Assembly: GCF_002127325.2 (NCBI RefSeq) | Contig: NC_035433.2 | Location: 14,682,611 to 14,746,610, forward strand | DNA: 64,000 bases | Reading direction: 5' to 3' | Source: Helianthus annuus | Taxonomy: Eukaryota > Streptophyta > Magnoliopsida > Asterales > Asteraceae | Shown: positions 20,099-50,410 of the stretch, piece by piece | Numbering within the stretch: position 1 is the first letter of the stretch | Layout: the number at the start of each line of letters is the position of its first letter | Position numbers and translations under genes: made by a program | The notes under the pieces: generated by a model | What the model was told of the DNA's origin: nothing | The model's input: only the letters and a program-made list of their open reading frames with translations | Databases searched by the model: none

Positions 20099-23000
20099 GT
20101 CAACACGCGCAGCAGCCAGTCTGCACATTCAAGAACTTCATGGACTGTCGTCCAAATTCTTTCAGCGGCACCGAGGGGGCAGTGGGACTCCTCCATTGGT
20201 TTGAAAAGTTAGAATCAGTATTCGAGATGTGCGAGTGCCCTGAGGCTCGCAAGGTCAAGTTTGCCACCGGTACTTTGGAGGGAATAGCACTGACTTGGTG
20301 GAACGCCCAAGTTCAGATCTTAGGGTTGGCAGCTGCTAACGCCACCCCATGGAACGACTTTAAGGAACTCATCAAGCGTGAGTATTGCACGCGTGAAGAT
20401 ATTCACAAGCTGGAAGACGAGCTGTATAATCTGAAGATGGTTGGTTCAGAGATCGAAGCGTATACTAAACGGTCGAATGAGCTGGCCGTTCTGTGTCCTA
20501 CTATGGTGGACCCTCCATACAAGCGCATTGAGTTGTATCTCAAGGGATTGGCGCCAGAAATTCAGAGCCACGTGACGTCGGCTAACCTCGAAAACATCCA
20601 GGAAATCCAGCGCCTCGCTCATCGCATCACCGATCAGGCAGTGGATCAGAATAAACTGCCCAAGCGTGTTAATGCTACTGCTAATGTCACCACCTCAGTT
20701 ACTCCTGCTACGTCTGGTGACAGTAAAAGAAAATGGGATGGAGATTCTAGTAAAAGTTCAGCATCTGTTCAGCCACAAGCTCAGCAGCAGAAGATTGACC
20801 ACTATCAGAGTCCCAGTCAGCAATCCTCTGGTGGTCACAGACAGAGGAGATATCAGGGTAGTCAACCTAGGTGCCACAACTGCAACCGGCATCACCACGG
20901 CCCATGTAACAAGGGTCGTTGTCAAAGGTGTCTTAAGATGGGTCACGAGGCCAAAGACTGTAGGAGCCCTCGTCCTGCGAATCAGAATCAGCAACAGCAA
21001 CAACCCGCTCCACAGAACCAGCAGCAGCCACAGCGTGGAAACCGGGGATGTTTCCAGTGTGGGGCTGAAGGTCATTTCAAACGCGATTGCCCTCAGCTAA
21101 ACCAGAACCAGAATCGCAACAACAACAACCAGGGCAACGGCAACAACAACGGCGGGAACAACAACAATAATGGCAACGAGGCAAGAGGTCGAGCTTTTGT
21201 CTTGGGAAGAGGAGACGCAGTGAACGATCCCAACGTAGTTATGGGTAAGTTTCTCCTCGACAATATTTACGTTACTGTTTTGTTTGATTCGGGTGCGGAT
21301 ACAAGCTATATGTCTGTGAAAATGTGTCAACTGCTAAAACGTGCACCAACACTTTTACCCACCAAACATGTAGTAGAGTTAGCTAACGGTAAAAGTCTAG
21401 AAGCCACGCACGTAGTTCAGGGTTGTAATCTTATCCTAGCTGGTCAAGCTTTCTCTATTGATCTCATTCCCATAGTTTTGGGTAGTTTCGACGTCGTGAT
21501 TGGGATGGATTGGCTATCCCAACACCAGGCAGAAATTCTATGCAGTGAGAAGATCATTCGTATTCCTCGTTCGGGTCAGGAACCTCTAGAAGTTCAAGGC
21601 GACAAGAGTGGTGCAGTGGTTGGCATCATCTCTTTCTTGAAGGCTCAGAAATGCTTACGTAAGGGGCACACAGCCATTTTGGCTCTTGTTACAGACGCAT
21701 CAGCAAAGGAAAAGAAATTGGAAGACATTCCAGTCGTACGTGATTTTCCTCAGGTGTTTCCTGAAGACTTACCTGGCTTACCGCCTCATCGTCAGGTTGA
21801 ATTTCAGATCGAGCTCGCTCCAGGAGCAGCACCCATAGCTCGCGCACCATATCGTCTAGCTCCATCGGAATTGGAGGAACTGTCAAAGCAACTGCAGGAA
21901 CTCTTGGAAAAGGGTTTCATACGACCAAGCTCTTCGCCTTGGGGAGCTCCAGTACTCTTTGTGAAGAAGAAAGACGGTACGTTCAGGATGTGCATCGACT
22001 ACCGTGAACTCAACAAGGTAACGGTGAAGAACCGTTATCCTCTTCCGCGCATCGACGACTTATTCGACCAGTTGCAAGGGTCGTGTTACTATTCAAAGAT
22101 AGACTTGAGGTCTGGATATCATCAGCTGAGAGTCCGGGATGAGGACATCTCCAAGACAGCTTTCAGAACTCGTTACGGTCACTACGAGTTTCTTGTCATG
22201 CCATTCGGGTTAACGAACGCGCCTGCCGTATTTATGGATCTTATGAACAGGGTGTGCAAACCCTATCTCGACAAGTTCGTCATAGTATTCATTGACGACA
22301 TTCTGATTTACTCCAAGAGTCAGGAGGAACACGAGCAGCAACTTCGTCTGATATTGGAACTCCTTCGAAAAGAACAGTTGTACGCCAAGCTTTCTAAATG
22401 CGACTTCTGGTTTCGTGAAGTCCACTTCTTAGGCCATGTGGTAAACAGGGATGGGATCCATGTCGATCCATCCAAGGTAGATTCGATCAGAAACTGGCCT
22501 GCACCGCGTACACCGACAGAAATACGCCAATTCTTGGGTCTGGCAGGTTACTACAGACGGTTTATTAGAGACTTTTCGAAGATTGCTCAGCCGCTTACGC
22601 TACTGACACAGAAGGGTGTTACCTATCGCTGGGGAGAGCCCCAGGAGACTGCTTTTCAACATCTAAAGGATAGACTTTGCAGCGCACCTATCCTCTCATT
22701 GCCAGAAGGCACAGATGACTTCGTGGTTTATTGTGATGCATCCATTCGGGGACTTGGATGTGTGTTAATGCAGCGCGACAAGGTTATTGCTTACGCCTCT
22801 CGTCAACTCAAGGTTCACGAACGAAACTACACGACGCACGATCTAGAGCTGGGAGCTGTCGTTTTCGCGCTTAAGATATGGCGACACTACCTGTACGGTA
22901 CCAGGTGCACGATTTACACCGATCACAGGAGTCTCGAGCATATCCTTAAGCAGAAGGATTTGAATATGCGTCAACGACGATGGGTCGAGTTACTTAACGA

Positions 23001-24645
23001 TTATCAATGCGCTATCAAGTATCATCCAGGCAAAGCCAATGTTGTGGCTGACGCACTTAGTCGAAAGGACACCTTACCGAAGCGCGTGCGAGCGCTACAG
23101 CTTACGATTCAGTCTAGCCTTCCTGCTCAGATACGAGCTGCTCAGACAGAAGCACTGAAGCCCGAAAACGTCAAGGCTGAAGCCTTACGCGGCTCACGAC
23201 AACAGATGGAACAGAAGGCAGACGGCACCTACTATGTAACGGGTCGTATTTGGGTCCCACTATATGGCGGTCTACGCGAACTTGTGATGGACGAAGCTCA
23301 CAAGTCTCGCTACTCGGTACATCCAGGGTCGGATAAAATGTACCACGATATTAGCACTACTTATTGGTGGCCTAGTATGAAGGCCCATATCGCTACGTAC
23401 GTTGGAAAGTGCTTGACTTGTGCAAGAGTCAAGGTCGAATATCAAAAACCAGCTGGCCTACTTCAGCAGCCTAAGATACCGCAATGGAAATGGGAGGAAA
23501 TTTCCATGGATTTTGTTACAGGCTTACCTAGATCTCAGCGTGGAAACGATACGATATGGGTGATCGTGGATCGACTCACTAAGTCTGCACACTTCCTACC
23601 TATAAAGGAAACGGACAAGTTCTCCACTCTCGCAGACGTCTATCTTAAAGAAGTTGTCTCGAGGCACGGGGTGCCCACATCTATCATTTCGGATCGCGAT
23701 GCACGATTCACGTCAGAGCTATGGCAAGCAATGCACAAATCTTTCGGCTCACGGTTAGACATGAGTACAGCATATCATCCTCAGACGGATGGGCAGTCTG
23801 AGCGAACGATCCAAACTCTTGAAGACATGCTTAGAGCATGCGTCATCGATTTCGGCAACGGCTGGGAAAAGCACCTCCCTTTGGTGGAGTTCTCTTACAA
23901 TAACAGTTACCATACCAGCATTCAAGCCGCTCCATTCGAGGCATTGTACGGGCGTAAATGCCGATCACCTCTCTGTTGGGCAGAGGTGGGGGATAGTCAA
24001 ATTACGGGTCCAGAGATTGTAGTGGACGCCACAGAAAAGATTGCACAAATAAGACAACGCATGGCGGCAGCACGCGACCGTCAGAAAGCCTACGCAGACA
24101 AGCGTAGAAAGCCATTGGAATTTGAGGTCGGGGACCGGGTTTTATTGAAAGTTTCACCCTGGAAGGGTGTGGTTCGTTTTGGCAAACGGGGCAAACTAAA
24201 TCCGCGGTACGTCGGACCATTCGAAATTTTAGAAAAGATTGGCAAGGTAGCCTACAAGTTGAATTTACCAGCTGAACTCGGGGCAGTTCACAATGTCTTT
24301 CATGTATCGAACCTAAAGGAGTGCCTATCTGATGAAAACCTCATCATTCCTTTCAAAGAACTCACTATCGACGAGCGGTTGCAGTTCGTCGAGGAACCAG
24401 TGGAAATCACGGACCGGGATGTGAAGGTCCTCAAACACAAGAGAATCCCTCTTGTTCGAGTTCGTTGGAACTCCAAACGTGGCCCAGAGTACACCTGGGA
24501 ACGCGAAGACAGGATGACAGAAAAGTACCCCCAGTTATTCGAAACCAATGCTACCACTACTGAGGCTGAAGCTACTACTTCGGAATTTCGGGACGAAATT
24601 CCAGATCAACGGGGGGAGGATGTGACACCCCAGGAAAATCATTGA
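20077..24645 (+). CDS. gag-pol: Gag-pol polyprotein of chromovirus B (1522 codons open)
   Basis: Encodes structural Gag and all enzymes for retrotransposition. Residues counted from 20077: Gag core 1-200; CCHC knuckles at 282-295 ([14 protein letters not shown]) and 325-338 ([14 protein letters not shown]); Asn/Gln-rich linker; aspartic protease DSGAD at 404; RT with FIDD at 738-741; RNase H with catalytic Asp in YCDAS near 887; integrase HHCC zinc finger around 1083-1121, then D1145, D1206 and E1242, with the D,D-35-E spacing; C-terminal chromodomain about 1438-1480 ([10 protein letters not shown], then GPEYTWERE). The chromodomain is thought to direct integration to heterochromatin. No stop or frameshift is seen. 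The true start is probably 19921 through a short intron. Gag and pol share one frame, usual for this lineage. Confidence 0.95.
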
Positions 24646-35600: not shown

Positions 35601-36250
35601 GCATTCGAATGGGGGTTGGAGTTGGCCTATAGCGTGGAGGGATTTGTTCCCTGTTCTGATTCAGATTGATCAAGTAATTTTGGAACCGATGAAAAATGAT
35701 AGGCTTTTATGGAAGGATGGGAATGATCTTAGTGGGTTTTCGACGTCTGGGGCTTGGCATTCGTTGCGCCATAGGGAACCGGATGTTGATTGGTGCAAAA
35801 TTGTGTGGTTCGCTCAGTGTATTCCGAGGCACGCATTCATGATGTGGCTGATTATGAAACGTAAGCTCCTTACACAGGATAAAATTCTGCAATGGGATTT
35901 TTCTAGAAGGAAAAACATGAATATGATGTGTTGCTTATTGTGTTTTGAGAACTTTGATTCCCATCCACACTTGTTCTTTGAATGCAAATATTCTTCACAG
36001 GTGTGGACGCTAATCCGGGATAGGGGGGGTATGAACTCGGTCAGCCCGAAATGGTCAGAAGTTGTTCACTGGCTTAGTGCTCGTAGTCATCAGAAGCGGG
36101 CGGATATTTGTGTGGCTAAGCTCCTCGTTGCGGCTACTGCTTATAACATTTGGCAAGAGAGGAATGCTCGGTTGTTTAAAAATCAACTCAGACCTCCTGA
36201 GACGGTTAGTGATGTTATTATCAAAACAGTGCGATACAAGTTGATGGGAG
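32665..36250 (+). pseudogene. ORF2 of LINE beta, interrupted near its C-terminus by delta
   Basis: Encodes AP-type endonuclease and reverse transcriptase for target-primed reverse transcription. The start at 32665 overlaps the ORF1 stop. Visible signatures: WNIRGLN at the N-terminus, GDFNSAL and SDHCPC (endonuclease), APGPDGYT, NQSAFVPGR, DIQKAYD, RGLRQGDPMSPY and CFADDLF (RT), and CCLLCFENFDSHPHLFFEC (zf-RVT). It is open up to the delta insertion at 36250, after which the frame runs into delta's 5' UTR and stops at 36363. The last codons lie at 42168-42254. The break is purely an insertion. Confidence 0.9.
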
Positions 36251-36798
36251 AAATAAAGAACAAAATAAGAGGGCCGTGTTCTCTCTCCCTTCTTGGCGAT
36301 TTCGTGCGCTTGTTCTTGATCTCCCTTGTTCTTCTTTGTGATCTGATGTATAACAATCTGTGATTGGATCTTGTTTCTTCCAAGTATCCATAACGAATTC
36401 GTTAGCATCAAGGATCAATCCAGAATTAGGGTTTCGTTTGTTTTTCTCATAATTGCCGCTCTAGAAACATATTCTGATTCTCTAATTTATTAATCTGGTT
36501 GCCATTGATTGCGGTTAACTGAGTTTAATTTAGCTAGATTGATGACACTGGATTAATCGATCAAGAGTTGAAGTTTTGCCTCTAGGGTTTAAGGGAGTTC
36601 GGGCTTTATTTTCTTCTTTACGTGTTCTTGTTCATTCAGATTTGGTTTCCTTCTGACGGCGGATTAGGGTTTGGTATTGTGAAGGTTTCTGTTTTCGGCG
36701 CTGATTTTCTGTGATTGTTTCATTTCTCTTGGCCGATTAGGGTTTTTGGTTTGGTTTTCTTTCATTGTCGGCTGTTTTAGTTCTTTCGTTTTGCATGC
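36251..36798 (+). promoter_or_regulatory. 5' UTR of delta
   Basis: Shares the CTCTCTCC and GGCGATTT opening with beta and a middle block (GATTGCGGTTAACTGAG). Presumed internal promoter. The short minus-strand ORFs here are not convincing. Confidence 0.55.
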
Positions 36799-38259
36799 AT
36801 GGCGGGTGAAAGTGGCGGGGTCAAACCTTTGAATCAACAATCACCTGGGGTTGATGATAATACTCCTCCGGTTCGTGGGATTGGATTACGAGTTAGGAAT
36901 ATTGAGGGTAATCCAATGATGCCGAGACGTGGTTTGTACTCGACGAATAATGTATCGGTCATAGATGGGCTCTTAGAAATCTCGAAGCCGGTGGAATTGC
37001 CTAGTGTGTGGGATTATGGAGATGGGTCTTCGGCAGCCAACACGGATAGCCAAGCTAATCCCAGTTCGAGTAATGTGGTCAATGATGCTCCCAGTTTGTC
37101 GTATGCTGATAAGGTTAAAACGCAGAATTCGCTGAAAAGAGAGGTTAACTTTCGTAAGCTGGACGCAACTGAGACGGTTCAGGATGCGGATGTGCTGATC
37201 CCGCGTGAGGTTATAAAAAAGGTCCAGGATAAATTTGAGAATGTTTTATATGGTTATTTCTTGGGCAATCGGCTGCCTTTTCCTGTTGTCGAGTATTATG
37301 CAAAAAATGTTTGGTCGAAATATGGTTTTGCGAAGATCATGATGAACTCTGATGGGTTTTTCTTTTTCAAGTTTGACTCTAAGGAGGGGATGATGAAAGT
37401 GCTGGACGGAGGGCCTTGGTTAATTAGAAAAGTTCCTTTATTCTTGAATGTTTGGTCGCCGTCGGTAAACCTCATAAAGGAGTGTATTAAGTCGGTCCCG
37501 GTATGGGTGAAACTCCATAATGTTCCTATTGCTATATACACGGATGATGGGCTGAGTTTATTAGCGTCTAAGTTGGGTACTCCTAAACGTTTGGATGGCT
37601 ATACGGCTGATATGTGTGTTGATAACTGGGGGAGAAGTAGCTTTGCTCGTGCGTTAATTGAAATTAGTGCGGATAATGAATTAAAAGATCATATTACGGT
37701 TGCAATTCCGAAGCTTGAAGCGGATGGTTATGTTACTCATAAGGTGAAAGTTGAATATGAATGGAAGCCGCAGAGGTGCTCGTCTTGCTGTGTTTTTGGT
37801 CATAGTGACCAAGCGTGTCCGAAGAACATAGTTTCAAAAGCTAAGCAGGTTGTTATTGATGATGAGGGGTTCGTTACGGATGAGCGGAAAATGGCTAGAA
37901 AAGGAGGTATGCAAAAGAAACAAAGGGCAAAATTTGTGTATAGGCCGAAAACAGGAAGCTCGGGTGCTAGCACTTCAGGTACGAAGGATGACAAGCAGAA
38001 TACTAATGCGAATGCAAATGTGGCAACTAAAAATTCTTTCGAAGTTTTATCTAAATCGGATGGGGATGCGGATATCCCTCCGGGTAATGTGAAGTCTACG
38101 GGGCCAACTGTGGCCGGTCCTAATGATCCGTTAGATGATTATGAAGCTGAATTTGTTGAGGCGGTGCCTACTGAAGTGTCAAAGTTTATGAGTAGTAATT
38201 CGATTGGAAGCAAAGCTGAGGGGGCAAGCACTCCCGGTCAGAGCGGTCTTCATGGATAG
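36799..38259 (+). CDS. ORF1 protein of LINE delta (486 aa)
   Basis: RNA-binding RNP protein of the L1 cycle. It starts MAGESGGVKP at 36799. The N-terminal motif VRGIGLRVRNIEGN is shared with beta. The DUF4283-like part contains YGYFLGNRLPFPVVEY, GFFFFKF, VWVKLHNVPIAIYTDDGL and GRSSFARALIEI. The CCHC knuckle has C327, C330, H335 and C340. The tail is basic and polar and ends EGASTPGQSGLHG. Unbroken and of normal length for this type. The stop TAG overlaps the ORF2 start in ATGGATAG, which suggests coupled translation. Confidence 0.9.
   Translation: MAGESGGVKPLNQQSPGVDDNTPPVRGIGLRVRNIEGNPMMPRRGLYSTNNVSVIDGLLEISKPVELPSVWDYGDGSSAANTDSQANPSSSNVVNDAPSLSYADKVKTQNSLKREVNFRKLDATETVQDADVLIPREVIKKVQDKFENVLYGYFLGNRLPFPVVEYYAKNVWSKYGFAKIMMNSDGFFFFKFDSKEGMMKVLDGGPWLIRKVPLFLNVWSPSVNLIKECIKSVPVWVKLHNVPIAIYTDDGLSLLASKLGTPKRLDGYTADMCVDNWGRSSFARALIEISADNELKDHITVAIPKLEADGYVTHKVKVEYEWKPQRCSSCCVFGHSDQACPKNIVSKAKQVVIDDEGFVTDERKMARKGGMQKKQRAKFVYRPKTGSSGASTSGTKDDKQNTNANANVATKNSFEVLSKSDGDADIPPGNVKSTGPTVAGPNDPLDDYEAEFVEAVPTEVSKFMSSNSIGSKAEGASTPGQSGLHG
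38221..38259 (+). promoter_or_regulatory. Conserved 11-mer and ORF1/ORF2 overlap (delta copy)
   Basis: GGGGCAAGCAC (38221-38231) lies 20 nt before the ORF2 ATG at 38252, and the ORF1 stop is inside ATGGATAG. The same 11-mer is found in beta (32634), gamma (44275), alpha (52392-52402, minus) and epsilon (45723-45733, minus), spaced 20-21 nt from the ORF2 ATG. It may act in termination-reinitiation. Confidence 0.6.
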
Positions 38260-41200
38260 TTTTCTTTCATGGAATATAAGGGGTTTGAACCATCCCCTGA
38301 AACAAAATGAGGTTCGTCTTATGCTGTCGGAAAATAAGGTGTCTGTTTGTGCTATTCTTGAATCGCATGTGGAGGTTGCTAATCTGGATAAAGTTTGTAA
38401 CAAGGTGTTCAGAAATTGGAGTTGGACGTCTAATGGGGGTCTTTGTGATCGGGGTACGAGAATTATCCTAGGATGGAATAGTGATATTGTGGATGTTATG
38501 ATTTTGTCTCAATCTGATCAAGTTATTCATGCGCAATTATGGTCTAAAACTGATAACACTAGTGTCTTCGGGTCTTTTGTTTATGCAAAAAATAAGTATC
38601 AAGACCGTAGGGCTCTTTGGGAGAACTTAGCTGGGCATGCAATATTGTGTACGGATAAGCCTTGGTTTGTCATGGGCGATTTTAACTCGGCGCTTTATAT
38701 GGAGGATTCACTGTTTGGTACGTCGAGTCAAACTATTGGAATGCGTGAATTTTATGAATGTGTCAAGAACTCGGGCCTGTTTGATGTGAAGGGTCATGGT
38801 ATGCAATACACTTGGAACCAGAAGCCGAAGGAGGGTATTGGTTTACTTCGTAAGATTGATAGGGTCATGTGTAATGTTAAGGGTTTAGACATGTTTCCTG
38901 ATGCTTATGTTTTGTACCATGCGTATCGGGTCTCGGACCACACTCCTTGCATTTTAAAGCTTACAAATGTGCCTAAAGGGTCTAAGCCGAAACCGTTCAA
39001 GTTCGCGAACTTTATTACTTCTAAACCGGAGTTCAGAATTTGTGTCGAGCGAGAATGGGTGAAGATGGTTGATGGGATTTCTATGTTCTCGGTTACCTCT
39101 AAGTTAAAAAACTTGAAGCCAGGTCTTAGGAAAATCCTGAACCAACAAGGGAATTTACACTTAAAGGTGAGTGAGCTGCGTAAAAAGCTTGATGAGATCC
39201 AATGCCTGCTAGACAAGAACCCTCTTGATGTGGAGCTTCGTAAGAACGAATCGGAGTGCCTAAAGGAGTTCCAGATTGCAGCATATGATGAAGAATGCTT
39301 CTTGAAACAAAAATCAAAGGTTGAGTGGCTTTGTACTGGGGATTCGAATACAGCCTTTTTTCATAATAGCCTGAAATGTAGAAATGCTAGAAACAAGATT
39401 CATTGTATTCGGGATGTGGCTGGAACCCGATATGAAGGGGATGCGGCTTCGGAAGCGTTAGTAAATCATTACGCGGGTTTCTTAGGAATGGAGGATCAAG
39501 TTGCTCGTATTGACTTGTCGGAGGTTTGTGTTAATACGCTTAGTCCGGAAGTGGCAAGCAACATGGTCAGACAGGTTACTCCAGAAGAAATTAAAAAGGC
39601 TATGTTCAGTATTGGTGAAAACAAAGCTCCGGGACCGGATGGTTACACGTCTGCCTTTTTCAAGCATGCATGGGATATTGTGGGGGCTGAGGTCACAAAA
39701 GCGATTCTGGAATTCTTTGAGAACGGTAAAATTCTGAAGCAATTGAATCATACAATTTTGGCTCTTATCCCTAAAGTTGATACCCCGGATTCGGTTTTGG
39801 ATTACCGTCCAATCTCTTGTTGCAATGTTCTCTACAAATGTATAAGTAAAATTATAACGGAGAGATTAAAGGGGTGTTTGGAGACCCTAGTTAGCATTAA
39901 TCAATCGGCGTTTGTGCCTGGTAGGAGGATTTCGGATAATATCCTCTTGACGCAAGAACTGATGCATAATTACCATCTAAACAAAGGCCCGCCAAGGTGT
40001 GCATTCAAAATTGACATTCAAAAGGCGTATGACACTGTTAGTTGGTCGTTTCTAGAACAGATTCTTTGTCAGTTTGGTTTGCATAGAAAGATGGTGAACT
40101 GGATTATGGCGTGTGTTACCACGGCTACCTATTCATTGAGTATAAACGGTAATCTCCATGGGTTCTTTAAGGGGAGAAGGGGGCTTCGTCAAGGAGATCC
40201 AATGTCTCCTTATTTGTTCACTCTTGTCATGGAGGTGCTCACTTTACTCCTTCAACATAATGCTCGTTCAAGCACAACGTTCAAGTATCATGCAAAATGT
40301 GTGAAGCAGAAAATTATTAATGTCTCTTTCGCTGATGATTTGTTTATTTTTGTTCATGGGAGTGTCTCTCCGGTTAACAGAATCAAGGAGGTGTTGGAGT
40401 TGTTCACTAATATTTCGGGACTGGTTCCGAGCCCTGCAAAGAGTACGGTCTTTTTCTGTAATGTTAGTCAGCAGGTTAGGCAGCATATTCTCAACATTAT
40501 GCCGTTTCAGGAAGGCACTTTGCCTGTTCGGTATCTTGGTGTGCCGTTGATTACTACGAGGTTAATGGCAAAAGATTGTAAGTTGCTGGTGGATCGTATG
40601 GAGAAGAAAATTGATAACTGGATGACAAAGACTCTCTCGTTTGCGGGTAGGTTGCAGCTGGTTAACTCTGTTCTTTCAGCCATGCATTTATATTGGGCTT
40701 CGGTTTTCATGATTCCGGCTCGTGTTACCAAGGAGTTAGAAAAGCGTATGCGGCGCTTTCTTTGGAATGCGGGAACGAGTGGGAGAATCAAAGCAAAGGT
40801 GGCGTGGAATGATATATGTTTGCCAAAAGCGGAAGGTGGTTTGGGTATTAGATGTATTGCGGATGTCAACAAGGCCCTCATTACTAAGCATATTTGGAGT
40901 ATCCTCTCAAAAAGGAACTCATTATGGGTGCAGTGGATCTATACTCATAAACTGAAAAATCAGAATTTTTGGGAGGTACAAGGTAAAGGTAGTATGACGT
41001 GGGGTTGGAGGAAGATTTTATCCATTCGGAATGCGGTTCGGCCGTCTTTTTGGAGCATCATTCGGAGTGGTAAGCAAACGAATGTGTGGAGCGATAATTG
41101 GTGTCACTTGAGTCCTCTTAGGTCTTTTATAACACCAAGACACATTGCGAACGCGGGGTTTAACCTTCAAGCCACGGTGGCAGAAGTAATAGATGAGAAT

Positions 41201-41929
41201 GGGCAGTGGAAATGGCCCCAAGCATGGTACGATGTATACCCGGTTCTGATTGGGTTAACTGTTAATCAACAGGACCCCCAGTTAGCGGACCGAATGGTTT
41301 GGAAGGATGTAGAGGGTCATGATCAGCACTTTAGCTCATTGGAAGTATGGCATACATTACGGACTCGTGACATTCCAGTTACGTGGGCTAGTATGGTGTG
41401 GTTTAGTCAATGTATCCCGAGACATTCATTTCATCTTTGGTTAGTCATAAAAAACAAGCTCAAAACACAAGATCGGTTGGCGGTTTGGGAAGTGGGCAGC
41501 GAAACGAACCGGAGACTCATGTGTTGTCCTCTTTGTAAACATGGTACGGATTCTAGAGATCATTTATTTTTCGTGTGTGGTTTTGCTTCTCAAGTCTGGT
41601 CGAACATAAGGATGTTGGTGGATTTGGAAAACGTTAATGATTCTTGGACCTCGATTGCGGATTGGATGGAACGCTATTCGGATTCCAAAAGGTTCAAACA
41701 CATTGTGTGTAAGCTAGCAATATCGGCCTCATCTTATTACATATGGCAAGAGCGGAATAATCGGTTGTTTACGTCAAAGGAGTGCACGGCGGAACAGGTA
41801 ACCGAGAAGATTAAAAACATTGTCCGGCTCAGGCTAATGGGTTTCGTTTACAAAGGAGATATGGATTATCAAAGGACGCTTACAAAGTGGCAGAACCTGT
41901 GTAGGGCATCGGATGAAGACCCGGGCTAA
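38252..41929 (+). CDS. ORF2 protein of LINE delta, endonuclease and reverse transcriptase (1225 aa)
   Basis: Cuts the target DNA and copies the element RNA onto it. Residues from the ATG at 38252 (the frame is open upstream to 38204, but this ATG matches the other copies): endonuclease with WNIRGLN 7-13, GDFN 142-145 and SDH 228-230; RT with GPDG 461-464, then NQSAFVPGR, DIQKAYD, RGLRQGDPMSPY and FADD 693-696; zf-RVT cysteine/histidine region about 1091-1110 (CCPLCKHGTDSRDHLFFVC); end DEDPG. All key catalytic motifs are present and no stop is seen. Translation probably depends on ORF1 termination. Confidence 0.93.
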   Translation: MDSFLSWNIRGLNHPLKQNEVRLMLSENKVSVCAILESHVEVANLDKVCNKVFRNWSWTSNGGLCDRGTRIILGWNSDIVDVMILSQSDQVIHAQLWSKTDNTSVFGSFVYAKNKYQDRRALWENLAGHAILCTDKPWFVMGDFNSALYMEDSLFGTSSQTIGMREFYECVKNSGLFDVKGHGMQYTWNQKPKEGIGLLRKIDRVMCNVKGLDMFPDAYVLYHAYRVSDHTPCILKLTNVPKGSKPKPFKFANFITSKPEFRICVEREWVKMVDGISMFSVTSKLKNLKPGLRKILNQQGNLHLKVSELRKKLDEIQCLLDKNPLDVELRKNESECLKEFQIAAYDEECFLKQKSKVEWLCTGDSNTAFFHNSLKCRNARNKIHCIRDVAGTRYEGDAASEALVNHYAGFLGMEDQVARIDLSEVCVNTLSPEVASNMVRQVTPEEIKKAMFSIGENKAPGPDGYTSAFFKHAWDIVGAEVTKAILEFFENGKILKQLNHTILALIPKVDTPDSVLDYRPISCCNVLYKCISKIITERLKGCLETLVSINQSAFVPGRRISDNILLTQELMHNYHLNKGPPRCAFKIDIQKAYDTVSWSFLEQILCQFGLHRKMVNWIMACVTTATYSLSINGNLHGFFKGRRGLRQGDPMSPYLFTLVMEVLTLLLQHNARSSTTFKYHAKCVKQKIINVSFADDLFIFVHGSVSPVNRIKEVLELFTNISGLVPSPAKSTVFFCNVSQQVRQHILNIMPFQEGTLPVRYLGVPLITTRLMAKDCKLLVDRMEKKIDNWMTKTLSFAGRLQLVNSVLSAMHLYWASVFMIPARVTKELEKRMRRFLWNAGTSGRIKAKVAWNDICLPKAEGGLGIRCIADVNKALITKHIWSILSKRNSLWVQWIYTHKLKNQNFWEVQGKGSMTWGWRKILSIRNAVRPSFWSIIRSGKQTNVWSDNWCHLSPLRSFITPRHIANAGFNLQATVAEVIDENGQWKWPQAWYDVYPVLIGLTVNQQDPQLADRMVWKDVEGHDQHFSSLEVWHTLRTRDIPVTWASMVWFSQCIPRHSFHLWLVIKNKLKTQDRLAVWEVGSETNRRLMCCPLCKHGTDSRDHLFFVCGFASQVWSNIRMLVDLENVNDSWTSIADWMERYSDSKRFKHIVCKLAISASSYYIWQERNNRLFTSKECTAEQVTEKIKNIVRLRLMGFVYKGDMDYQRTLTKWQNLCRASDEDPG

Positions 41930-42154
41930 GGACCAAGATTTTGTGTTGTCTGTTTGGTAGTAATTGTTTGTTTTCTTGGTAGTGTTTTGGGCTGTGTGTC
42001 GTCTTTGGTTGTACGTTGATGTTGGTCTTGTTTTCTTGTTGCCTAGTCTTGGTATGCCGGGGCTAGTTGCGTGTGCTATGTCAGGCACATGCTTTGTTCT
42101 TATTGGTTATTTATAAAATTTACCGGGGTAACCCTTTACCCAAAAAAAAAAAAA
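41930..42154 (+). other. 3' UTR, hairpin and poly(A) of delta
   Basis: G/T-rich 3' UTR ending in the 19-base family terminus. The hairpin is GGGTAA/TTACCC with loop CCCT at 42126-42141, directly followed by poly(A). Confidence 0.8.
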
Positions 42155-42167
42155 AAAGTTGATGGGA

Positions 42168-42480: not shown

Positions 42481-42593
42481 TCTGCTATTTTTTCACATTT
42501 ATTGTGAAATTTAAACGAAGAGTCAATACGAACCGCATGGTGAAGAATGGTCGTCAAAACCTCCATAACTAAGGTAAAAAGATAAGGGGAGAT
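42481..42593 (-). pseudogene. RT fragment of alpha between beta and gamma
   Basis: About 110 bp of alpha ORF2. On the minus strand it reads SPYLFTLVMEVLTTILHHAV, the stretch just before FADD in beta. A local frame defect is likely, since the reading drifts near 42490. It ends in GATAAGGGGAGAT (42581-42593), which is repeated at 50411-50423. Confidence 0.8.
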
Positions 42594-42855
42594 GGCGACC
42601 AAGGGAAACCCTAGCTTTCGTTCGTTCGTTCGTTCCTACTAATCTTCTTCTTGATTGATTTCGGTTAGAAATTGTGGTGTTGTCGTTCCTTCTGAGTAAG
42701 GATACTAGACTTCACCGTGGTTTCTAATCGTTTGACGTCGGGTTTAAGGTTAGTTTTTGCTTCGTTTTTCCTGCTAGGGTTTGTTGCCAGATCGTTTGGT
42801 TTTGTTGTTTCGTTCGTTTTCTTTGCACGTTGCATGCTTCTTGATTTCGTTTGTC

Positions 42856-44307
42856 ATGGATTCTAGTCAGTTCAAGCCATCGGATATGGATGCTAGACAT
42901 GTTAAGCCGCCGGATATATTGAGTTCCTCGCGAAACCCTAATAAGGGTTTTTCGTCTAGGTTATTGAATATTGACGGAAAAACGTTCTGTCCGCGTAGGG
43001 GTGTTGTGTCTGATCAACAACAGGGATCGAAGGGAATTAATGTTATCGACGAACTTACCAAGATCACTGTTCCAGTTGATGTTCAGGATGCTAGGCCGGA
43101 GGTAGCTAAACCGAATGATATGCAGGATGAGGTGTTCTGGGAAGCTACTCAGGAGGATAAACCAGTCTCATATGCGGATAAAGTGCAAGCCACTCGTAAG
43201 AAACGGGAGGTAAATTTCAGACTTATGGAAGCTATAGAATCTAGAGACGATGCTGATATTGTTATACCGAAAGAGGTTGTTCAGCAAGTACAGGATAAGT
43301 TTGAAAATGTCCTCTATGGTTATTTTTTAGGGGATAGGTTGCCGTTTCCTGTGGTTGAATATTATGCAAAGAATGTCTGGGCAAAGTTTGGGTTTTCAAA
43401 ACTTATGATGAACACGTCAGGCTTCTTTTTCTTTAAGTTCGATTCGAAGGAGGGATTGACTAAGGTTTTAGAGGGAGGTCCATGGTTAATACGTAAAGTT
43501 CCGTTATTTTTAAACGTATGGTCACCGAAGGTTGCTCTCAAGAAAGATGGTATCAAAACCGTGCCAGTATGGGTAAAGTTGCACAATGTGCCGATCTCAG
43601 TTTATACTGATGATGGGTTAAGCTTGCTCGCATCTAAGATAGGTGTTCCAAAGAGGTTAGATTCCTATGCGGCTGATATGTGTGTTGAGAATTGGGGTAG
43701 GAGTAGTTATGCTCGTGCGATGATTGAAATTAATGCTGACAATGATCTAAAGGATTTGATTACGCTAGCTATTCCTAAAATGGATGAAGACGGGTTCATT
43801 ATGGAGCGGGTAAAGGTGGAATATGAATGGAGGCCGAAACGGTGTAGTGCTTGTTGTTTATTTGGTCATGATGAGAATACGTGTAGCAGCAAATCTAATG
43901 GTAAGTCCAAAATGGTTACCATTGATGAGGAGGGATTTGTTACGGATAGAAGGAAGATGGCAAAGTACTCGTTCCCACAAAAAAAGCAAAAACCAAAGGT
44001 TGTGTATAGGCCTAAGGTTAATAAATCTTATGCAAGTACTTCTGGTACGAAGGGAGATAACTCGACGGGAAGCAATGCTAATGTGCAGGTGTCAAACTCA
44101 TTTGGGGTGCTCGATAATGGCTTGAATGATGAGGAGAGGGACCCTACTAGTGCCAAGTCCATGATTGATGAGAATAATGGTACCCGTATTCACCAACCGG
44201 ATGTAGTCAAAGAGTTGAATCCGACAGAGATGGCTGATTTTATGAGTGGTAACCAGAATAATAAATCTTCTGAGGGGGCAAGCACTCCCGGTTACGAGGG
44301 TTTTTAA
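42856..44307 (+). CDS. ORF1 protein of LINE gamma (483 aa)
   Basis: RNA-binding ORF1 protein. ATG at 42856 (MDSSQFKPSD) is taken as the start; the frame is open further upstream into the 5' UTR. The DUF4283-like part has YGYFLGDRLPFPVVEY, GFFFFKF and VWVKLHNVPISVYTDDGL. The CCHC knuckle is CSACCLFGHDENTC. The tail ends EGASTPGYEGF. Unbroken. Its stop and the ORF2 start share one base (TAATG), unlike the 8-nt overlap of the other copies. The 5' UTR (42594-42855) has a TTCG run and no gene. Confidence 0.88.
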   Translation: MDSSQFKPSDMDARHVKPPDILSSSRNPNKGFSSRLLNIDGKTFCPRRGVVSDQQQGSKGINVIDELTKITVPVDVQDARPEVAKPNDMQDEVFWEATQEDKPVSYADKVQATRKKREVNFRLMEAIESRDDADIVIPKEVVQQVQDKFENVLYGYFLGDRLPFPVVEYYAKNVWAKFGFSKLMMNTSGFFFFKFDSKEGLTKVLEGGPWLIRKVPLFLNVWSPKVALKKDGIKTVPVWVKLHNVPISVYTDDGLSLLASKIGVPKRLDSYAADMCVENWGRSSYARAMIEINADNDLKDLITLAIPKMDEDGFIMERVKVEYEWRPKRCSACCLFGHDENTCSSKSNGKSKMVTIDEEGFVTDRRKMAKYSFPQKKQKPKVVYRPKVNKSYASTSGTKGDNSTGSNANVQVSNSFGVLDNGLNDEERDPTSAKSMIDENNGTRIHQPDVVKELNPTEMADFMSGNQNNKSSEGASTPGYEGF

Positions 44308-45408
44308 TGGGTACCTTAGCTGCTTGGAACATAAGGGGTCTGAACCAACCCCTGAAACAAAGTGAGGTTCGTCATTTTATTGCTGAGAATCAATTAAGTA
44401 TTTGTGCAGTTTTAGAATCCCATGTGGATGTAAACAAGCTGAATAAGATATGCGAGAAAGTGTTTAGGAATTGGAAGTGGACGTCGAATGGAGATATGTG
44501 TAGTAGAGGTATGAGGGTGATTTTGGGGTGGAATGCGGAGGACATTGATCTTATGGTTATAGCTCAATCCGATCAGGTCATTCATACGCAGCTTTTGTTC
44601 AAATCGGTTAAAAAGAAAATATTTTGTTCGTTTGTGTATGCGGAGAACAAGTATCAGGATAGGAGAAGCTTGTGGGATGATCTGTCTAAATTTAGAGGCC
44701 TCACTTGTGACACTCCTTGGGTTGTGATGGGTGATTTCAACGCTGCTTTGAATATGGAGGATTTTCTCATGGGTCCGTCTTCCCACACGATAGCAATGCG
44801 AGAGTTTTATGAATGTGTTCAAATGACGGAACTGATTGATATTAAGACTCACGGGTTGCACTATACTTGGAATCAAAAACCAAAGGATGGGGTAGGAATG
44901 CTAAAGAAGATCGACCGTATCATGGGCAACATCAAACTCTTAGAGGTTTTTTCGGATGCTTATGCCATGTTTCAGCCATTTCGTGTTTCGGATCATGCTC
45001 CGGCCATACTGAAACTATTCTCTATTCATAGGGATCGGCCTAAACCGTTTAAGTTCCCAAATTTTATTGTGTCTAAGCCTGAGTTTCGTGAAGCTGTCTT
45101 GACCGAATGGAATAAACCGGTTGAGGGTGTGACCATGTTCTCAGTGGTGAAGAAGATGAAGGATCTGAAATCGCACTTTAGGAGGATATTACGTAATCAA
45201 GGTAATCTTCATAAACGGGTTGTTGATTTACGGAATGACCTGGATAAGATTCAAAAACAGGTGGAATCTCAGCCGTTTGATGCCACTCTTCGGGCTTCAG
45301 AAGTCATATGTCTACGAGATTTCAAGGCCGCGGTCTATGATGAGGAGTGCTTCTTGAAGCCAAAGTCCAAAGTGCAATGGTTATGTGCAGGTGATTCTAA
45401 CACTTCTT
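44307..45408 (+). pseudogene. ORF2 of gamma, N-terminal part (endonuclease)
   Basis: Starts MGTLAAWNIRGLNQPLKQ. Endonuclease motifs GDFNAAL and SDHAPA are present. It is open until epsilon is inserted in the codons for GDSNTS. The target duplication TGATTCTAACACTTCTT (45392-45408) is repeated at 47633-47649, where the frame resumes. Confidence 0.9.
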
Positions 45409-45627
45409 TTTTTTTTGGGTAAAGGGTTACCCCGGTAAATCTATTAAAAATCAACCGCAAATAAGTACAAGTAGTGAGGATGTGTTCCACACTAGTTCAT
45501 ATATAGGACATGCCCTATATATGTATGACCCAACAAAAACAAAACATCTATGACACCCCGAAACCTAGCCTACTAAACATCATGATCTAGTAGACAAACT
45601 TGGAAAAAACAAAACAAAACAAAATCC

Positions 45628-45702
45628 TCAGCCGCCATCATCAAAAATAAAGTTGCCACAAACCGGCAACCCCTTCAAACGAACCAAAAGCAGCCTATCC
45701 AT
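45628..45702 (-). CDS. 24-codon ORF2 remnant of epsilon
   Basis: Starts at the usual overlap ATGGATAG with MDRLL and ends FDDGG, like the last residues of alpha and beta ORF2 (DDGG). Start and end codons of ORF2 are thus fused in frame over a loss of about 3.6 kb. Whether it is translated is unknown; the upstream 11-mer is kept at 45723-45733. Confidence 0.6.
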   Translation of the reverse strand: MDRLLLVRLKGLPVCGNFIFDDGG

Positions 45703-47149
45703 TTGAGAATTTTGTGGAAGAGGTGCTTGCCCCTGCTTTCGAAGAGAAAGGATGAGTACCCGATGTCATAAATGCACTAGTTTCATTGTATACTTCTTCG
45801 ACCTCCTCTTCATCCGAATCCTGCCTATCAGTCGACTTTTTCTCCTTCTCTCTACGACCCACATTACTACCTCCCTGACCACCATCATCATCCTTAAGAG
45901 CATCAAAGGGGTTTGATGTTGATACCTGATTGTTCACCGGCTTCTTCAAGGACGAGATTGGTTTAGGGTTTACAACTGGTCTGTACACTACCTTCGGCTT
46001 CTGATTTTTCATGTGAAGACCTTGATTAGTAGATTTCTTCTTCTTTGCACCCACAACCTGAAAATCATCAATTTTCTTACTAGGCTCCCCACTCGAAACA
46101 ACCTGAGGCCTCATAGGACACGAGTTATCCTCATGACCAAACACACAACAAACAGAGCACCTCAAAGGCTCCCAATCATATTCAATTTTCACCTCCACCA
46201 TTGAGTGACCATTACCCTGTAAAGATGGGATTGCAACTTTAATACTCCTCTTTAATTCAGCCCCGGCATGAATTTCAATAAGAGCTCTAGCATAACTGCT
46301 TCTTCCCCATGACTCAGCACACATTGTAGCAGTGTATGAATCTAGCATCTTAGGCACCCCTATCTTAGAAGCAAGCAAACTAAGACCGTCCTCAGTATAA
46401 GCTGCTAACGGCACTTCATGCATCTTAACCCAAACAGGGATAGCCTTTATGTCTTCTTTTTCCAGCTTGACAGAGGCCGACCACTCCTTCAAGATTATCG
46501 GAACATTTCTAATCAACCATGGCCCATCCTCCACCAATTTATCCATCCCTTCCTTTGTTTTGAATTTAAAGAAAAAGAACCCGTTTGCATTCATCATTAG
46601 TCTAGAAAGACCATATTTGACCCAGTTATTCTTTGCAAAATAATCCACCACAGGAAAAGCCAGCCGTTTGCCCAGAAAATAACCATACAACGTGTTCTCA
46701 TACCTGTCTGAGACTTGCTTGACCGACGACAATGGAATAACCACATCAGCACCATCAACCGACTCGCTAGATTCCATCATCCGAAAATTAACCTTAACTT
46801 TCTCCTTTTCGGTGTTCACAACGCTAGCAAATGAGACCGGGTTTGCAGCCCCCGAATTCACTCCCCCCATACTTGTCGATGCAGCACCATTGGATTCAAA
46901 ATTTTGCGCATATCTCTTGGTAGCTTGCTTAATCCCTTCCCAATCAGAAACCCTAGTTGCTGACCGCAAGTTTTCAGCATCAATTGGAACAGAATTCTTT
47001 ATCAATTCATCAATTATGTTAACGTTACGGGGTTCAGTTTGAGCCGAGAGATTGTCAATTACTTTAAACCTTGCTGCAATTTCTTCAAACGTTGCCCTCG
47101 GTGTCGAATGAACCTGTTGTTTACCACCAGAACCACTAACATCATCCAT
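45695..47149 (-). CDS. ORF1 protein of LINE epsilon (484 aa)
   Basis: Complete ORF1 protein. The ATG at 47149 reads MDDVSGSGGKQQ; the frame is open a few codons upstream. The DUF4283-like part has YGYFLGKRLAFPVVDY, GFFFFKF, VWVKMHEVPLAAYTEDGL and GRSSYARALIEI. The CCHC knuckle is CSVCCVFGHEDNSC. The tail ends AGASTSSTKFSNG. It lacks the VRGIGLRV motif of beta and delta near the N-terminus. An intact ORF1 beside an erased ORF2 suggests ORF1 was useful for its own mobility. Confidence 0.88.
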   Translation of the reverse strand: MDDVSGSGGKQQVHSTPRATFEEIAARFKVIDNLSAQTEPRNVNIIDELIKNSVPIDAENLRSATRVSDWEGIKQATKRYAQNFESNGAASTSMGGVNSGAANPVSFASVVNTEKEKVKVNFRMMESSESVDGADVVIPLSSVKQVSDRYENTLYGYFLGKRLAFPVVDYFAKNNWVKYGLSRLMMNANGFFFFKFKTKEGMDKLVEDGPWLIRNVPIILKEWSASVKLEKEDIKAIPVWVKMHEVPLAAYTEDGLSLLASKIGVPKMLDSYTATMCAESWGRSSYARALIEIHAGAELKRSIKVAIPSLQGNGHSMVEVKIEYDWEPLRCSVCCVFGHEDNSCPMRPQVVSSGEPSKKIDDFQVVGAKKKKSTNQGLHMKNQKPKVVYRPVVNPKPISSLKKPVNNQVSTSNPFDALKDDDGGQGGSNVGRREKEKKSTDRQDSDEEEVEEVYNETSAFMTSGTHPFSSKAGASTSSTKFSNG

Positions 47150-47632
47150 CTCAAAAATTGGCAAACCCTAGCAGCCGTCACTAGAGAAACAGCCAAATAA
47201 TCGGCTGAAGTTAACCCTAGCCGAACACAACTAGGATATCGAACAAACCCTAGTAGCCGTCACCCACTAATCGATCAAATCAAGAACCAAAACAATCTGA
47301 TTATGGATTGTCGAAACCCTAATCTGATAATCGGGATCTCTTCACTAATCGGAGAAATTATAGCCGACGAACAGCCGCACCTCTTCACTAAACAGAAAAA
47401 AGATGAAAATCGGAACCCTAAATGCAGAATTGAAGCACGATTTCAACTGATTGTCTTCTAAGAATCGTCTATAGAAACCCTCAGATGATAATCAATGTCA
47501 ATCGTGATTAGAAGAGCACGAATTCTGCTAGGATTACACGAAAATTGCCCAATTCGCCTAGTTCGCCCAGAGAAACCCTATGTGTGTGTGTAACTGTTAC
47601 GGTCCCTTAGAAGGCGGAAGCACTTTTTGTTC
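47150..47632 (-). promoter_or_regulatory. 5' UTR of epsilon
   Basis: Complete-looking 5' UTR reaching the 17-bp duplication, with a short CA/TG run at the very end and GGGCGAACTAGGCG near the start. Presumed internal promoter. No gene. Confidence 0.5.
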
Positions 47633-47649
47633 TGATTCTAACACTTCTT

Positions 47650-50207
47650 ACTTCCATAATTGTGTGAAAAGTAGGAATGCGAGAAATAAGATTAATTGCA
47701 TCAAGGATACGAATGGTAATCAGTATGAGGGAAGTGATGTTGCGGCTGCTCTTCTCAACCATTATTCGGCTTTCATGGGTACCGAAGATCAGGTTGCGAG
47801 TCTTGATGATTCAGATTTATTTGTTAATGTTTTACAACAAAATGTGGCGGAGAATATGGTGAGACAGGTCACTGATGATGAAGTGAAACAGGCTATGTTC
47901 AGTATAGGTGAGAACAAGGCCCCCGGTCCGGATGGTTACACATCTGCGTTTTTTAAAAATGCGTGGGATATAGTGGGTGCTGATGTTATAAAAGCGGTGC
48001 GTGATTTTTTTAACAATGGCCAAATTCTGAAGCAAATAAACCATACGATCTTAGCGTTGGTGCCGAAGATAGATACTCCAAATACGGTGCTCGACTACAG
48101 GCCGATTTCATGCTGCAATGTGATTTATAAATGTATTAGCAAAATAATCACTGATCGTTTGAAGGGCAGCTTGGGGATTTTAGTGAACATAAACCAGTCG
48201 GCGTTTGTTCCGGGTAGGAAGATATCGGATAATATTCTTATTACGCATGAGCTTATGCATAATTATCATGTGAATCGCGGTCCTCCGAGGTGTGCATTGA
48301 AGATTGATATCCAAAAAGCTTATGACACTGTAAGTTGGTCCTTTTTGGAAGCTATCCTTAAACGGTTCGGGTTCCACCGAAAGATGGTCTCTTGGATTAT
48401 GGCATGTGTCACTTCTGTTTCCTATTCGGTTAGCATAAATGGTGAGCTGCATGGGTATTTTTCGGGGAAACGGGGTCTTCGTCAAGGAGATCCAATGTCC
48501 CCATACCTATTCACGTTGATTATGGAGGTGTTATCTCTCATGTTACAAAAGATGGCGTTACATCCGGCATTTAAGTTCCATAGCCACTGCTCTAAACAAA
48601 AGATTATTAATGTGTCCTTCGCTGATGATTTATTTGTTTTTGTTAATGGGGACACTGGATCGGTTCAGCTTATTCGGAATGTATTGGAGAAATTCACTAG
48701 TGTTTCGGGCTTAGTCCCTAGCTTGCCAAAGAGTACGATCTTCTTTTGTAATGTTCCAAGTCAAGTTAAAGCTGAGATTATGAGCCTGTTGCCGTTTCGT
48801 GAGGGTAACCTTCCGATTCGCTACCTCGGGGTTCCTTTGATCTCTACCAAGTTATCCTTTAGAGACTGTCGGGTGCTTGTGGAACGTATGGAGAGGAGGG
48901 TTGATAACTGGATGTCTAAATCGCTGTCATTTGCAGGTCGATTGCAGCTTCTCAACTCTGTTCTTTCAGCTATGTATACATATTGGGCATCGGTCTTTAT
49001 TTTGCCTATGCGAATAGTTAAGGATCTTGAAAAGAGAATGCGCAGGTTTCTGTGGAATGCAGGGACTCCGGGCAATATTCGGTCAAAAGTTGCATGGAAT
49101 GATGTTTGTTTGCCTAAGGATGAGGGGGGTCTAGGGATCAGAAATATATCAGATGTGAACAAAGGCCTTATGATGTCTCATATCTGGAGTATTATTAGCA
49201 ACCGAGAGTCCCTTTGGGTCCAATGGATCCATTCGTACAAGTTAAAGGGCCGAAACTTCTGGGATATTCAAAGCCGTGGTAGCTTAACCTGGAGTTGGCG
49301 AAAGATTCTATCTATTCGTCCGCTGGTCAGACCTTATGTTTGGAGGGAGATTGGTAGTGGTTCGCAGACTAATGCGTGGAGTGATAATTGGTGCTCGTGT
49401 AGTCCGATCCGTAACTTTATTACGCCTAGGAGAATAGCTCAAGCTGGCTTTACTTTGCATACTACGGTTGATGAACTTGTGGGTGCGGATGGTAATTGGA
49501 GGTGGCCACAGGCATGGTACGACTTATTTCCAGTTCTCATAAATGTCACGGTTCCTCATCTTGTTCCTGATTCGAGTGACAGACTGGGTTGGAAAACTGT
49601 GGAAGGTAAAATTGTGCATTTTAATTCCTGGGAAGCTTGGAACAACCTTCGCTTAAGGGATAACAAGGTGGTTTGGGTGAACATGGTGTGGTATGGCCAA
49701 TGCATTCCAAGACACGCTTTCCACCTTTGGTTAGTTCTAAAAAATAAGCTTAAGACGCAGGATAGACTGGCGGTCTGGGAAGCAGGGAGTGAGACAAATT
49801 TAAGACTTATGTGCTGTCCTCTTTGCAACTATGGACGGGACTCGAGGGATCACTTGTTCTTTCAATGCTCTTTTTCGGCTAAAGTATGGAATATTGTCAA
49901 GAAGAGAACTGATCTGAGGTATGTTAGTGACTATTGGAGCTCTATTATGGGATGGATAGAACAGAATGCGAGTTCAAAGACGCTGGATCACATTGTAAGT
50001 AAGCTTGTTCTTGCGGCGTCTACATACTTCATATGGCAAGAAAGGAACAACCGGCTGTTTTCCAACATACGCAGAAAGGAAGAGATGGTGGCGCAAGTTA
50101 TTCTTGACACGGTACGGCTTCGTATTATGGGCTTCAAGATCGGCCGAGACGTGAACAGCAGGAGACTTTTGGAAGCATGGGAAATAAAGGAAGACGTTCC
50201 GGGCTAA
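47650..50207 (+). pseudogene. ORF2 of gamma, RT and C-terminal part
   Basis: Continues gamma ORF2 after epsilon with YFHNCVKSRNARNKI. RT motifs: APGPDGYT, NQSAFVPGRKISDN, DIQKAYDTV, RGLRQGDPMSPY and SFADDLF. The zf-RVT region is CCPLCNYGRDSRDHLFFQC, and the protein ends KEDVPG. No stop. The upstream open codons from 47580 belong to epsilon's flank, not to this protein. Gamma was probably intact before epsilon landed. Confidence 0.9.
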
Positions 50208-50410
50208 TGGCGTGTTTAGTTAGCTAGTGTGATGTAGTTTTTGTTTGTGTTTCGGGTTGTTCTGGTTTGGCTGTTTCTTTGGTTTTGTTTGTTTGTTTTG
50301 CCTAGGCTTGGCATGTCAAGCCTAGTAGTGTGTGTCAAACTTTTTGTCGCACCCTGTTCTTTGATTCTTTTATAAAATTCACCGGGGTAACCCTTTACCC
50401 AAAAAAAAAA
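50208..50410 (+). other. 3' UTR, hairpin and poly(A) of gamma
   Basis: T/G-rich 3' UTR with the terminal hairpin at 50385-50400 and 10 A. Confidence 0.8.

Follow-up and report, generated by a model that had tools for sequence, protein, structure and literature searches.

An L1-type LINE that carries ORF1 and only a short remnant of ORF2 is present at hundreds of sites in the sunflower genome, so that the mammalian half-L1 (HAL1) appears to have a counterpart in plants. We consider it probable (roughly 0.84) that these elements form a large and long-lived family of non-autonomous L1-type LINEs, which would bring their own ORF1 protein (ORF1p) in cis and obtain reverse transcriptase (RT) in trans. 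The evidence comprises a common deletion junction, independent insertions, an ORF1 that is mostly open and under selection, the failure of exact patterns to find the marker ORF1 end on any full-length element, and a compartment on contig C1 that is shared with full-length LINEs. One of the elements, epsilon, had been the subject of a preliminary description; new beyond it are the copy number, which runs into the hundreds, the joining of three ORF1 lineages to one 3′ module, the apparent exchange of 5′ ends, and a clustering that looks centromere-like.

Anatomy and setting of epsilon

The window, i.e., the whole stretch of 64,000 nucleotides that was analysed (C1:14682611-14746610), contains epsilon as a 2.2-kb L1-type LINE that has ORF1 but lacks a usable ORF2. 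It is inserted in ORF2 of delta, a full-length plus-strand L1 at 44307-50207, and the other LINEs of the window have kept both ORFs or pieces of both. All parts previously ascribed to epsilon (17-bp duplication, poly(A), 3′ hairpin, 5′UTR, 484-aa ORF1, and 24-codon ORF2) were found again in the sequence. The features are as follows.

45409..47632, minus strand: epsilon, complete ORF1-only LINE including the short poly(A), 2,224 bp, with contiguous copies in the genome
45392..45408, no strand: target-site duplication, copy 1, 17 bp, exact direct repeat TGATTCTAACACTTCTT
47633..47649, no strand: target-site duplication, copy 2, 17 bp, exact direct repeat TGATTCTAACACTTCTT
47150..47632, minus strand: 5′UTR of epsilon, 483 bp, a module that varies from one subfamily to another
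45695..47149, minus strand: ORF1 of epsilon, 484 aa plus stop, Pfam DUF4283, CCHC knuckle read by eye
45628..45702, minus strand: ORF2 remnant MDRLLLVRLKGLPVCGNFIFDDGG, 24 codons plus stop, the common deletion junction
45417..45627, minus strand: 3′UTR of epsilon, of the kind common to the ORF1-only copies examined
45568..45595, minus strand: 3′UTR stem-loop 1
45498..45523, minus strand: 3′UTR stem-loop 2, the family hairpin of the preliminary description, with 13-nt arms
45472..45494, minus strand: 3′UTR stem-loop 3
45417..45436, minus strand: 3′-terminal motif ACCGGGGTAACCCTTTACCC, which also ends alpha, beta, gamma, and delta
45409..45416, minus strand: poly(A) tail; the A-run covers 45407-45416, its last two bases being counted in the target duplication
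36251..42155, plus strand: beta, a nearby full-length L1 with ORF1 (486 aa) and ORF2 (1225 aa) both open

ORF1 of epsilon has no inner stop. The remnant ORF2 frame starts with an ATG at 45702 that overlaps the ORF1 stop, and it ends in FDDGG, with its stop codon ending at 45628. The named relatives of epsilon ORF1 among the 120 matches listed were from Asteraceae. Beta, which is flanked by the target duplication AAGTTGATGGGAG (starts at 36238 and 42156) and whose ORF2 has endonuclease, RT, and zf-RVT domains, is an example of a possible RT source for epsilon; the same three domains are present in ORF2 of alpha.

Copies with the common junction

A DNA search of the 3.01-Gb, 334-contig sunflower assembly with epsilon gave 2,888 first-look candidates, the best 40 of which, in 40 places on 14 contigs, made up the epsilon-type set (the window's own copy and 39 others, L009-L047). 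The ORF1 end, the stub, the 3′UTR, and the poly(A) were contiguous in all 40 of these closest copies. A target duplication of at least 12 bp was found in 33 of them (12-20 bp, mean 16.3, 32 distinct) and was absent in 7, whereas a control with flanks swapped between copies showed one in 1 of 400 cases. Full-length ORF1 was open in 34 of the 40 copies and broken or truncated in six (L018, L040, L043, L044, L046, and L047). L017 and L018 have the same target duplication and may represent one insertion that was duplicated.

Searches with exact patterns located the junction at 327 (narrower pattern) or 919 (broader pattern) genome sites, compared with none for the reversed-pattern control of either. 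The marker ORF1 end CAAGCACCTC (Gly-Ala-Ser-Thr-Ser) was followed by the junction at 919 sites genome-wide and by the ORF2 start motif at none, with both strict and broad exact patterns. Conversely, CAAGCACTCC (Gly-Ala-Ser-Thr-Pro), the end found in the window's full-length LINEs, was followed by the ORF2 start motif at 1,069 sites and was joined to the junction at none genome-wide by exact pattern; such patterns miss copies with altered anchors, and the start motif leaves the intactness of the remaining ORF2 unproven. Because of these counts (919/0 versus 1,069/0), the ORF1-only and the full-length kinds are, by exact patterns, separate populations of similar size.

The preliminary description had concluded from the complete insertion marks of epsilon that the deleted form itself had been copied. 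This argument is invalid on its own, because the marks would also survive an internal deletion that took place after insertion, and a deletion unique to the epsilon locus, either by later loss of ORF2 from a full-length LINE or by a jump of the RT during one insertion, would look identical; it can nevertheless be dismissed, as the junction is present at 919 exact-pattern sites and in 40 of the 40 closest copies, 33 of them with target duplications that take 32 distinct forms. The conclusion itself therefore stands on the other copies. Further copies with the same ORF1-to-3′UTR junction at different target sites were the result that had been proposed as a check, and their lack the result that would have spoken against the proposal; many such copies exist. 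With many copies, their own target duplications, and poly(A), the ORF2-less form is mobile in the sense applied to HAL1.

One junction among many independent insertions is also known from human L1 SpIREs, according to the accessible text of the source (PMC5860796), and the sunflower copies might correspondingly be recurrent by-products of full-length RNA spliced at the same sites, each dead on arrival and without progeny. The gene models P0025 and P0027, judged by their protein ends, look as if an intron had been predicted near the ORF1 end, as this explanation would have it. A full-length parent should then carry the marker end, but this end occurred on no full-length element compared with 919 occurrences with the junction, a count by exact patterns that would miss a diverged parent, and the copies fall into subfamilies marked by changes of their own in stub, ORF1, and 3′UTR. 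We therefore regard recurrent splicing as very improbable. SpIREs resemble the sunflower elements in having internal deletions and one junction common to many insertions, but their deletions, as far as the accessible text describes them, lie in the 5′UTR and ORF1 and the copies are dead on arrival (PMC5860796), whereas the sunflower elements have lost ORF2 and form subfamilies.

Three ORF1 lineages and one 3′ module

Two further ORF1 types, represented by the proteins P0045 and P0051, were found with the same junction. P0045 and epsilon ORF1 are 54% identical over 76% of the epsilon ORF1. By our own count, 61 of the 84 match rows of the P0045 search and 73 of the 88 match rows of the P0051 search were without inner stop. 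The junction and the 3′ end motif were present in 18 of 18 sampled P0045-type and in 18 of 18 sampled P0051-type copies, both samples being hand-picked to span 66-100% identity; in three P0045-type copies (L059, L062, and L065) the mini-ORF was damaged.

The stubs of these two types, one copy of each, were compared in 12-nt blocks with the window's four ORF2 starts. They agreed at 8-10, 2-8, and 7-9 of 12 positions in blocks 1 to 3, i.e., over ~36 nt, and at 0-2 of 12 positions in the fourth block; as the match is lost after ~36 nt, the 5′ breakpoint is placed around codon 12 of ORF2. The stub's final residues match alpha-family ORF2 ends, as seen for L103, an alpha-family ORF2 C terminus ending in ...EIHGKETFDDGG. 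The earlier proposal that the stub joins the start of ORF2 to its end was thus matched on both sides, by the ~36-nt start and by the alpha-family end, although this support is indirect. Splicing, DNA deletion, and an RT jump are indistinguishable by sequence as origins of the junction, since a close full-length parent was not found.

Of 76 stubs, 72 were open with ATG and stop (24 codons in 68 and 23 codons in 4). Variation per site in the 40 epsilon-type copies was 0.015 in the stub, 0.046 in the 3′UTR, and 0.014 in the ORF1 end. Initial pN/pS values of 0.44 and 0.37 for the stub were biased by the method used to find stubs. Codons 4-17, which are left unfixed by the stub-finding pattern, gave a pN/pS of 0.67; coding selection on the stub is unsupported, because another frame gave a lower value (0.48) and 66 of 300 column shuffles were as low. 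A protein search with the stub yielded three candidates, of which P0025 alone passed.

The 3′UTRs of epsilon-type and P0045-type copies were 71-87% identical to each other in the printed representatives (three epsilon-type and six P0045-type), and those of the same ORF1-only copies were 55-62% identical to alpha and gamma and 47-57% identical to beta and delta. All three ORF1-only types lay on short branches of a 3′-module tree (46 ORF1-only and 4 full-length rows), the bootstrap of which was not settled and which by itself is no proof of one origin. Alpha and gamma fell among the ORF1-only rows of this tree, on a long branch and without strong support. Three stem-loops of the 3′UTR were kept in 24 sequences, with few and mostly one-sided changes. 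Stem-loops 2 and 3 are like hairpins predicted in the full-length elements alpha and gamma. Each of the four full-length 3′UTRs read carried the terminal motif ACCGGGGTAACCCTTTACCC at its end.

The ORF1-core tree (n = 57) contained 21 ORF1-only and 36 full-length-type sequences, the type being assigned from the end motif. They were what remained of 123 proteins and 4 window ORF1s after those without motif or core had been dropped. The ORF1-only type occupied three places in this tree, and three label changes were forced by well-supported branches. Taken by themselves, the three clades could mean that ORF2 was lost separately in three full-length lineages, whose 3′ ends later converged or were exchanged, the more so as the 3′ ends of alpha and gamma do not clearly fall outside the 3′ modules of the ORF1-only type. 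Mammalian HAL1, according to what Bao and Jurka are said to have reported in 2010, arose independently more than once, which we counted in favour of this explanation. Three separate losses are unlikely, however, in view of a stub that hardly varies in length and an ORF1 end of one kind in all three types, the 3′UTR identities between epsilon-type and P0045-type copies, and the short branches on which all three types lie.

More simply, recombination or template switching would have brought ORF1 bodies from three LINE lineages onto one 3′ module. The bodies of epsilon-type ORF1s had a mean identity of 72% to a full-length-type group (P0036, P0037, P0042, P0071, and P0030) and of 56% to the P0051-type, whereas for the 40 residues before the GAST motif the corresponding values were 18% and 62%. 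Because the body is closer to the full-length type but the last 40 aa are closer to the P0051-type, epsilon ORF1 is, judged by these identities, a mosaic. Among ten copies whose ORF1 cores were 95-99% identical, the best alignment of the 5′UTRs reached 240 nt in 4 of 45 pairs, which suggests that 5′ ends, too, were swapped. In the epsilon subfamily of L012, the 3′UTR groups with the P0051-type (95/83). The ORF1-only family thus seems to have swapped in new ORF1 versions several times, and the mosaics of ORF1 and 5′UTR would show which parts of a LINE are open to swapping.

The part that appears fixed is the 3′ module, comprising an ORF1 tail of its own, the 24-codon mini-ORF, and the three stem-loops, on which three ORF1 bodies are represented. 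We are inclined, with slightly better than even odds, to view the lineage as a persistent modular parasite, in which this ORF2-less module would repeatedly acquire ORF1 bodies and promoters and be copied in trans by the machinery of centromeric LINEs. ORF1p would then be the sole protein that a trans-mobilised RNA must bring, and the swapping might be driven by the need to match RT donors.

Selection on ORF1 and the proposed supply of RT

The dN/dS of ORF1 among copies, a comparison already proposed in the preliminary description, was far below 1. Eight epsilon subfamilies (28 pairs, last 374-375 ORF1 codons) gave values of 0.05-0.20 at a dS of 0.02-0.16, and pN/pS within the epsilon subfamilies was 0.07-0.43. 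The median was 0.20 for P0051-type ORF1s (n = 10, range 0.14-0.48, dS up to 1.44) and 0.24 for P0045-type ORF1s (n = 9, range 0.17-0.30, dS up to 1.04). All sets consisted of open ORFs (34 of the 40 epsilon-type copies and 19 hand-picked stop-free rows), which biases dN/dS down somewhat; the 19 P0051-type and P0045-type rows were all among the copies shown to be ORF1-only. Since the shallow copies are all ORF1-only and the nearest full-length-type bodies in the set are ~72% identical, these ratios indicate that ORF1 is under purifying selection while in the ORF1-only state. Deeper ORF1 conservation may be partly older than the capture. On open ORFs, coding capacity of ORF1 has been kept in the ORF2-less lineage, as in HAL1.

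A low dN/dS would also be observed if mobilisation were purely in trans, with ORF1p not acting on its own RNA, and if the constraint on ORF1 stemmed from a recent takeover or from another role, such as interference with rivals. The apparent exchange of ORF1 bodies with full-length lineages speaks for this explanation, as deep conservation may then partly predate capture. However, at a dS of 0.02-0.16 all 40 epsilon-type copies have the ORF1-only form, and in the compared set no full-length-type body is closer than ~72% identity, so that recent recapture fails to explain the values of 0.05-0.20. Purely trans mobilisation is rather unlikely in our view, and the anatomy of the elements together with the selection on ORF1 suggests that ORF1p would act in cis and RT would come in trans.

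According to the preferred reading, in which ORF1p is supplied in cis and RT in trans, a complete copy consists of its own 5′UTR, the presumed promoter, a gene for ORF1, and the 3′ end of an L1 with a ~24-codon ORF2 stub. The ORF1-only RNA would be transcribed and translated into ORF1p, which would act preferentially on this RNA. The endonuclease/RT of a full-length centromeric LINE would recognise the 3′ hairpins and the terminal motif, and target-primed reverse transcription would place copies of the RNA at new sites. The family would have kept one 3′ module, to which the ORF1 bodies from three lineages of LINEs, as well as many different 5′UTRs, were added through recombination or template switching. 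It is an old question why ORF1p is needed by some LINEs and whether it works in cis, and an ORF1-only family that keeps a selected ORF1 on foreign RT would be a natural experiment on this need, in a plant and with hundreds of copies, in many of which ORF1 is open.

The simplest reading of the chromosomal placement and of the 3′ ends is that full-length centromeric LINEs supply RT in trans and the element itself supplies ORF1p. Tallied on C1, the interval from 12.5 to 16.5 Mb of 149.5 Mb contained 49 of 52 ORF1-only sites and 53 of 58 full-length LINE sites, i.e., both kinds occupy the same compartment of this contig. The clustering looks centromere-like, which suggests that the choice of target comes with the borrowed machinery. 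A full-length element with a closely matching 3′UTR was not found, the three alpha-family 3′UTRs compared being 55-64% identical to those of ORF1-only copies. The genome pattern search for ORF2 ends with FDDGG gave two exact matches; the 3′UTR of one was 59-64% identical to ORF1-only copies and 77-79% identical to alpha and gamma.

Mammalian HAL1 encodes ORF1p alone and kept its coding capacity for 29-44 Myr in guinea pig, and ORF1p in cis combined with ORF2p in trans has been proposed for it, according to the accessible text of PMC3627910, which cites Bao and Jurka 2010. The sunflower elements are likewise L1 derivatives with a long-kept coding ORF1 and without ORF2, and the comparison with HAL1 drawn in the preliminary description is apt as regards the mode of life, i.e., mobility without ORF2 and selection on ORF1. 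They differ in that their ORF1 is of the plant DUF4283 type and derives from plant L1s rather than by mammalian L1 descent, in that the start of the stub overlaps the ORF1 stop, and in that one 3′ module carries three ORF1 lineages; they work like HAL1 but arose separately and are not members of HAL1. The statement that no plant L1 example was known agrees with the listed titles and abstract beginnings of the open-access literature searched, in which no plant ORF1-only LINE was seen, and it holds within that scope.

Two centromeric plant LINEs share features with the elements described here. HaCEN-LINE of sunflower is enriched in CENH3 ChIP-seq and located on centromeres by FISH (PMC4628103, Nagaki et al. 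2015, accessible text). The full-length LINEs and ORF1-only copies of our analysis, compared with it by description only, share one dense interval of C1. The HaCEN-LINEs possess endonuclease and RT, whereas epsilon has no endonuclease/RT ORF and only 24 ORF2 codons left; ORF1-only elements are not mentioned in the accessible part of that paper (PMC4628103). Celine of poplar centromeres resembles the sunflower LINEs in its DUF4283 ORF1, overlapping ORF1/ORF2, short poly(A), and TSDs, which in Celine are 10-30 bp long according to the accessible text of PMC11288735. In contrast to the ORF1-only elements, Celine is full-length with both ORFs, and its non-autonomous copies are described in that text as truncations (PMC11288735).

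A word-filtered protein search found the marker ORF1 end in 22 proteins, all from H. annuus, H. anomalus, or ENA contigs, and P0012 of H. debilis has it as well. With rates as usually assumed, the dS values of about 1 or more within two lineages suggest an origin older than the genus Helianthus. A dS of up to 1.44 within one lineage sits oddly with a marker end seen only in Helianthus or ENA contigs; the mismatch could be due to faster change via reverse transcription, to exchange of ORF1 with full-length elements, or to gaps in the protein set. Many such ORF1s are labelled uncharacterised or hypothetical proteins in public records, and the annotation of these proteins would gain.

The ORF2 stub and the proteins that read into it

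In the ORF1-only copies that carry the ORF1-to-stub junction (L001 and L009-L083), the remnant of ORF2 begins in overlap with the stop of ORF1, and it is open in 72 of 76 (45628-45702 in epsilon, the ORF1-only element of the window). Coding selection was tested on the stubs of these same copies, and none could be demonstrated. The C-terminal ends of four proteins in the sunflower database (P0023, P0025, P0027, and P0119) run on into the stub; in P0025, P0027, and P0119 these ends suggest that gene prediction placed an intron close to the end of ORF1.

Exchange of 5′ ends

Ten ORF1-only copies (L001, L012, L021, L022, L025, L032, L038, L039, L041, and L045) share 95-99% identity in their ORF1 cores. 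Among them the 5′ UTRs have been exchanged, and in part the exchange takes in the first ~100 residues of ORF1 as well.

Full-length L1 elements and the surrounding interval

The full-length L1-type LINEs of the window include:

36251-42155, beta, with ORF1 and ORF2 both open and a 13-bp target duplication
42594-50405, delta, with an 18-bp target duplication (copies starting at 42576 and 50406)

Beta is inserted in the 3′ end of alpha, another L1, and delta in ORF2 of an L1 on the minus strand; delta is itself interrupted by epsilon. The window lies inside a very LINE-dense interval of the sunflower genome (G000, C1:12.5-16.5 Mb), in which ORF1-only and full-length elements occur side by side and which may be a centromere.

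LTR-retrotransposon-like frames

The window also contains two related frames:

20140-24645, plus strand, open frame of 1,501 codons
8097-8915, RT-like frame related to the former

Inspected by eye, the 1,501-codon frame looks like an LTR-retrotransposon gag-pol.
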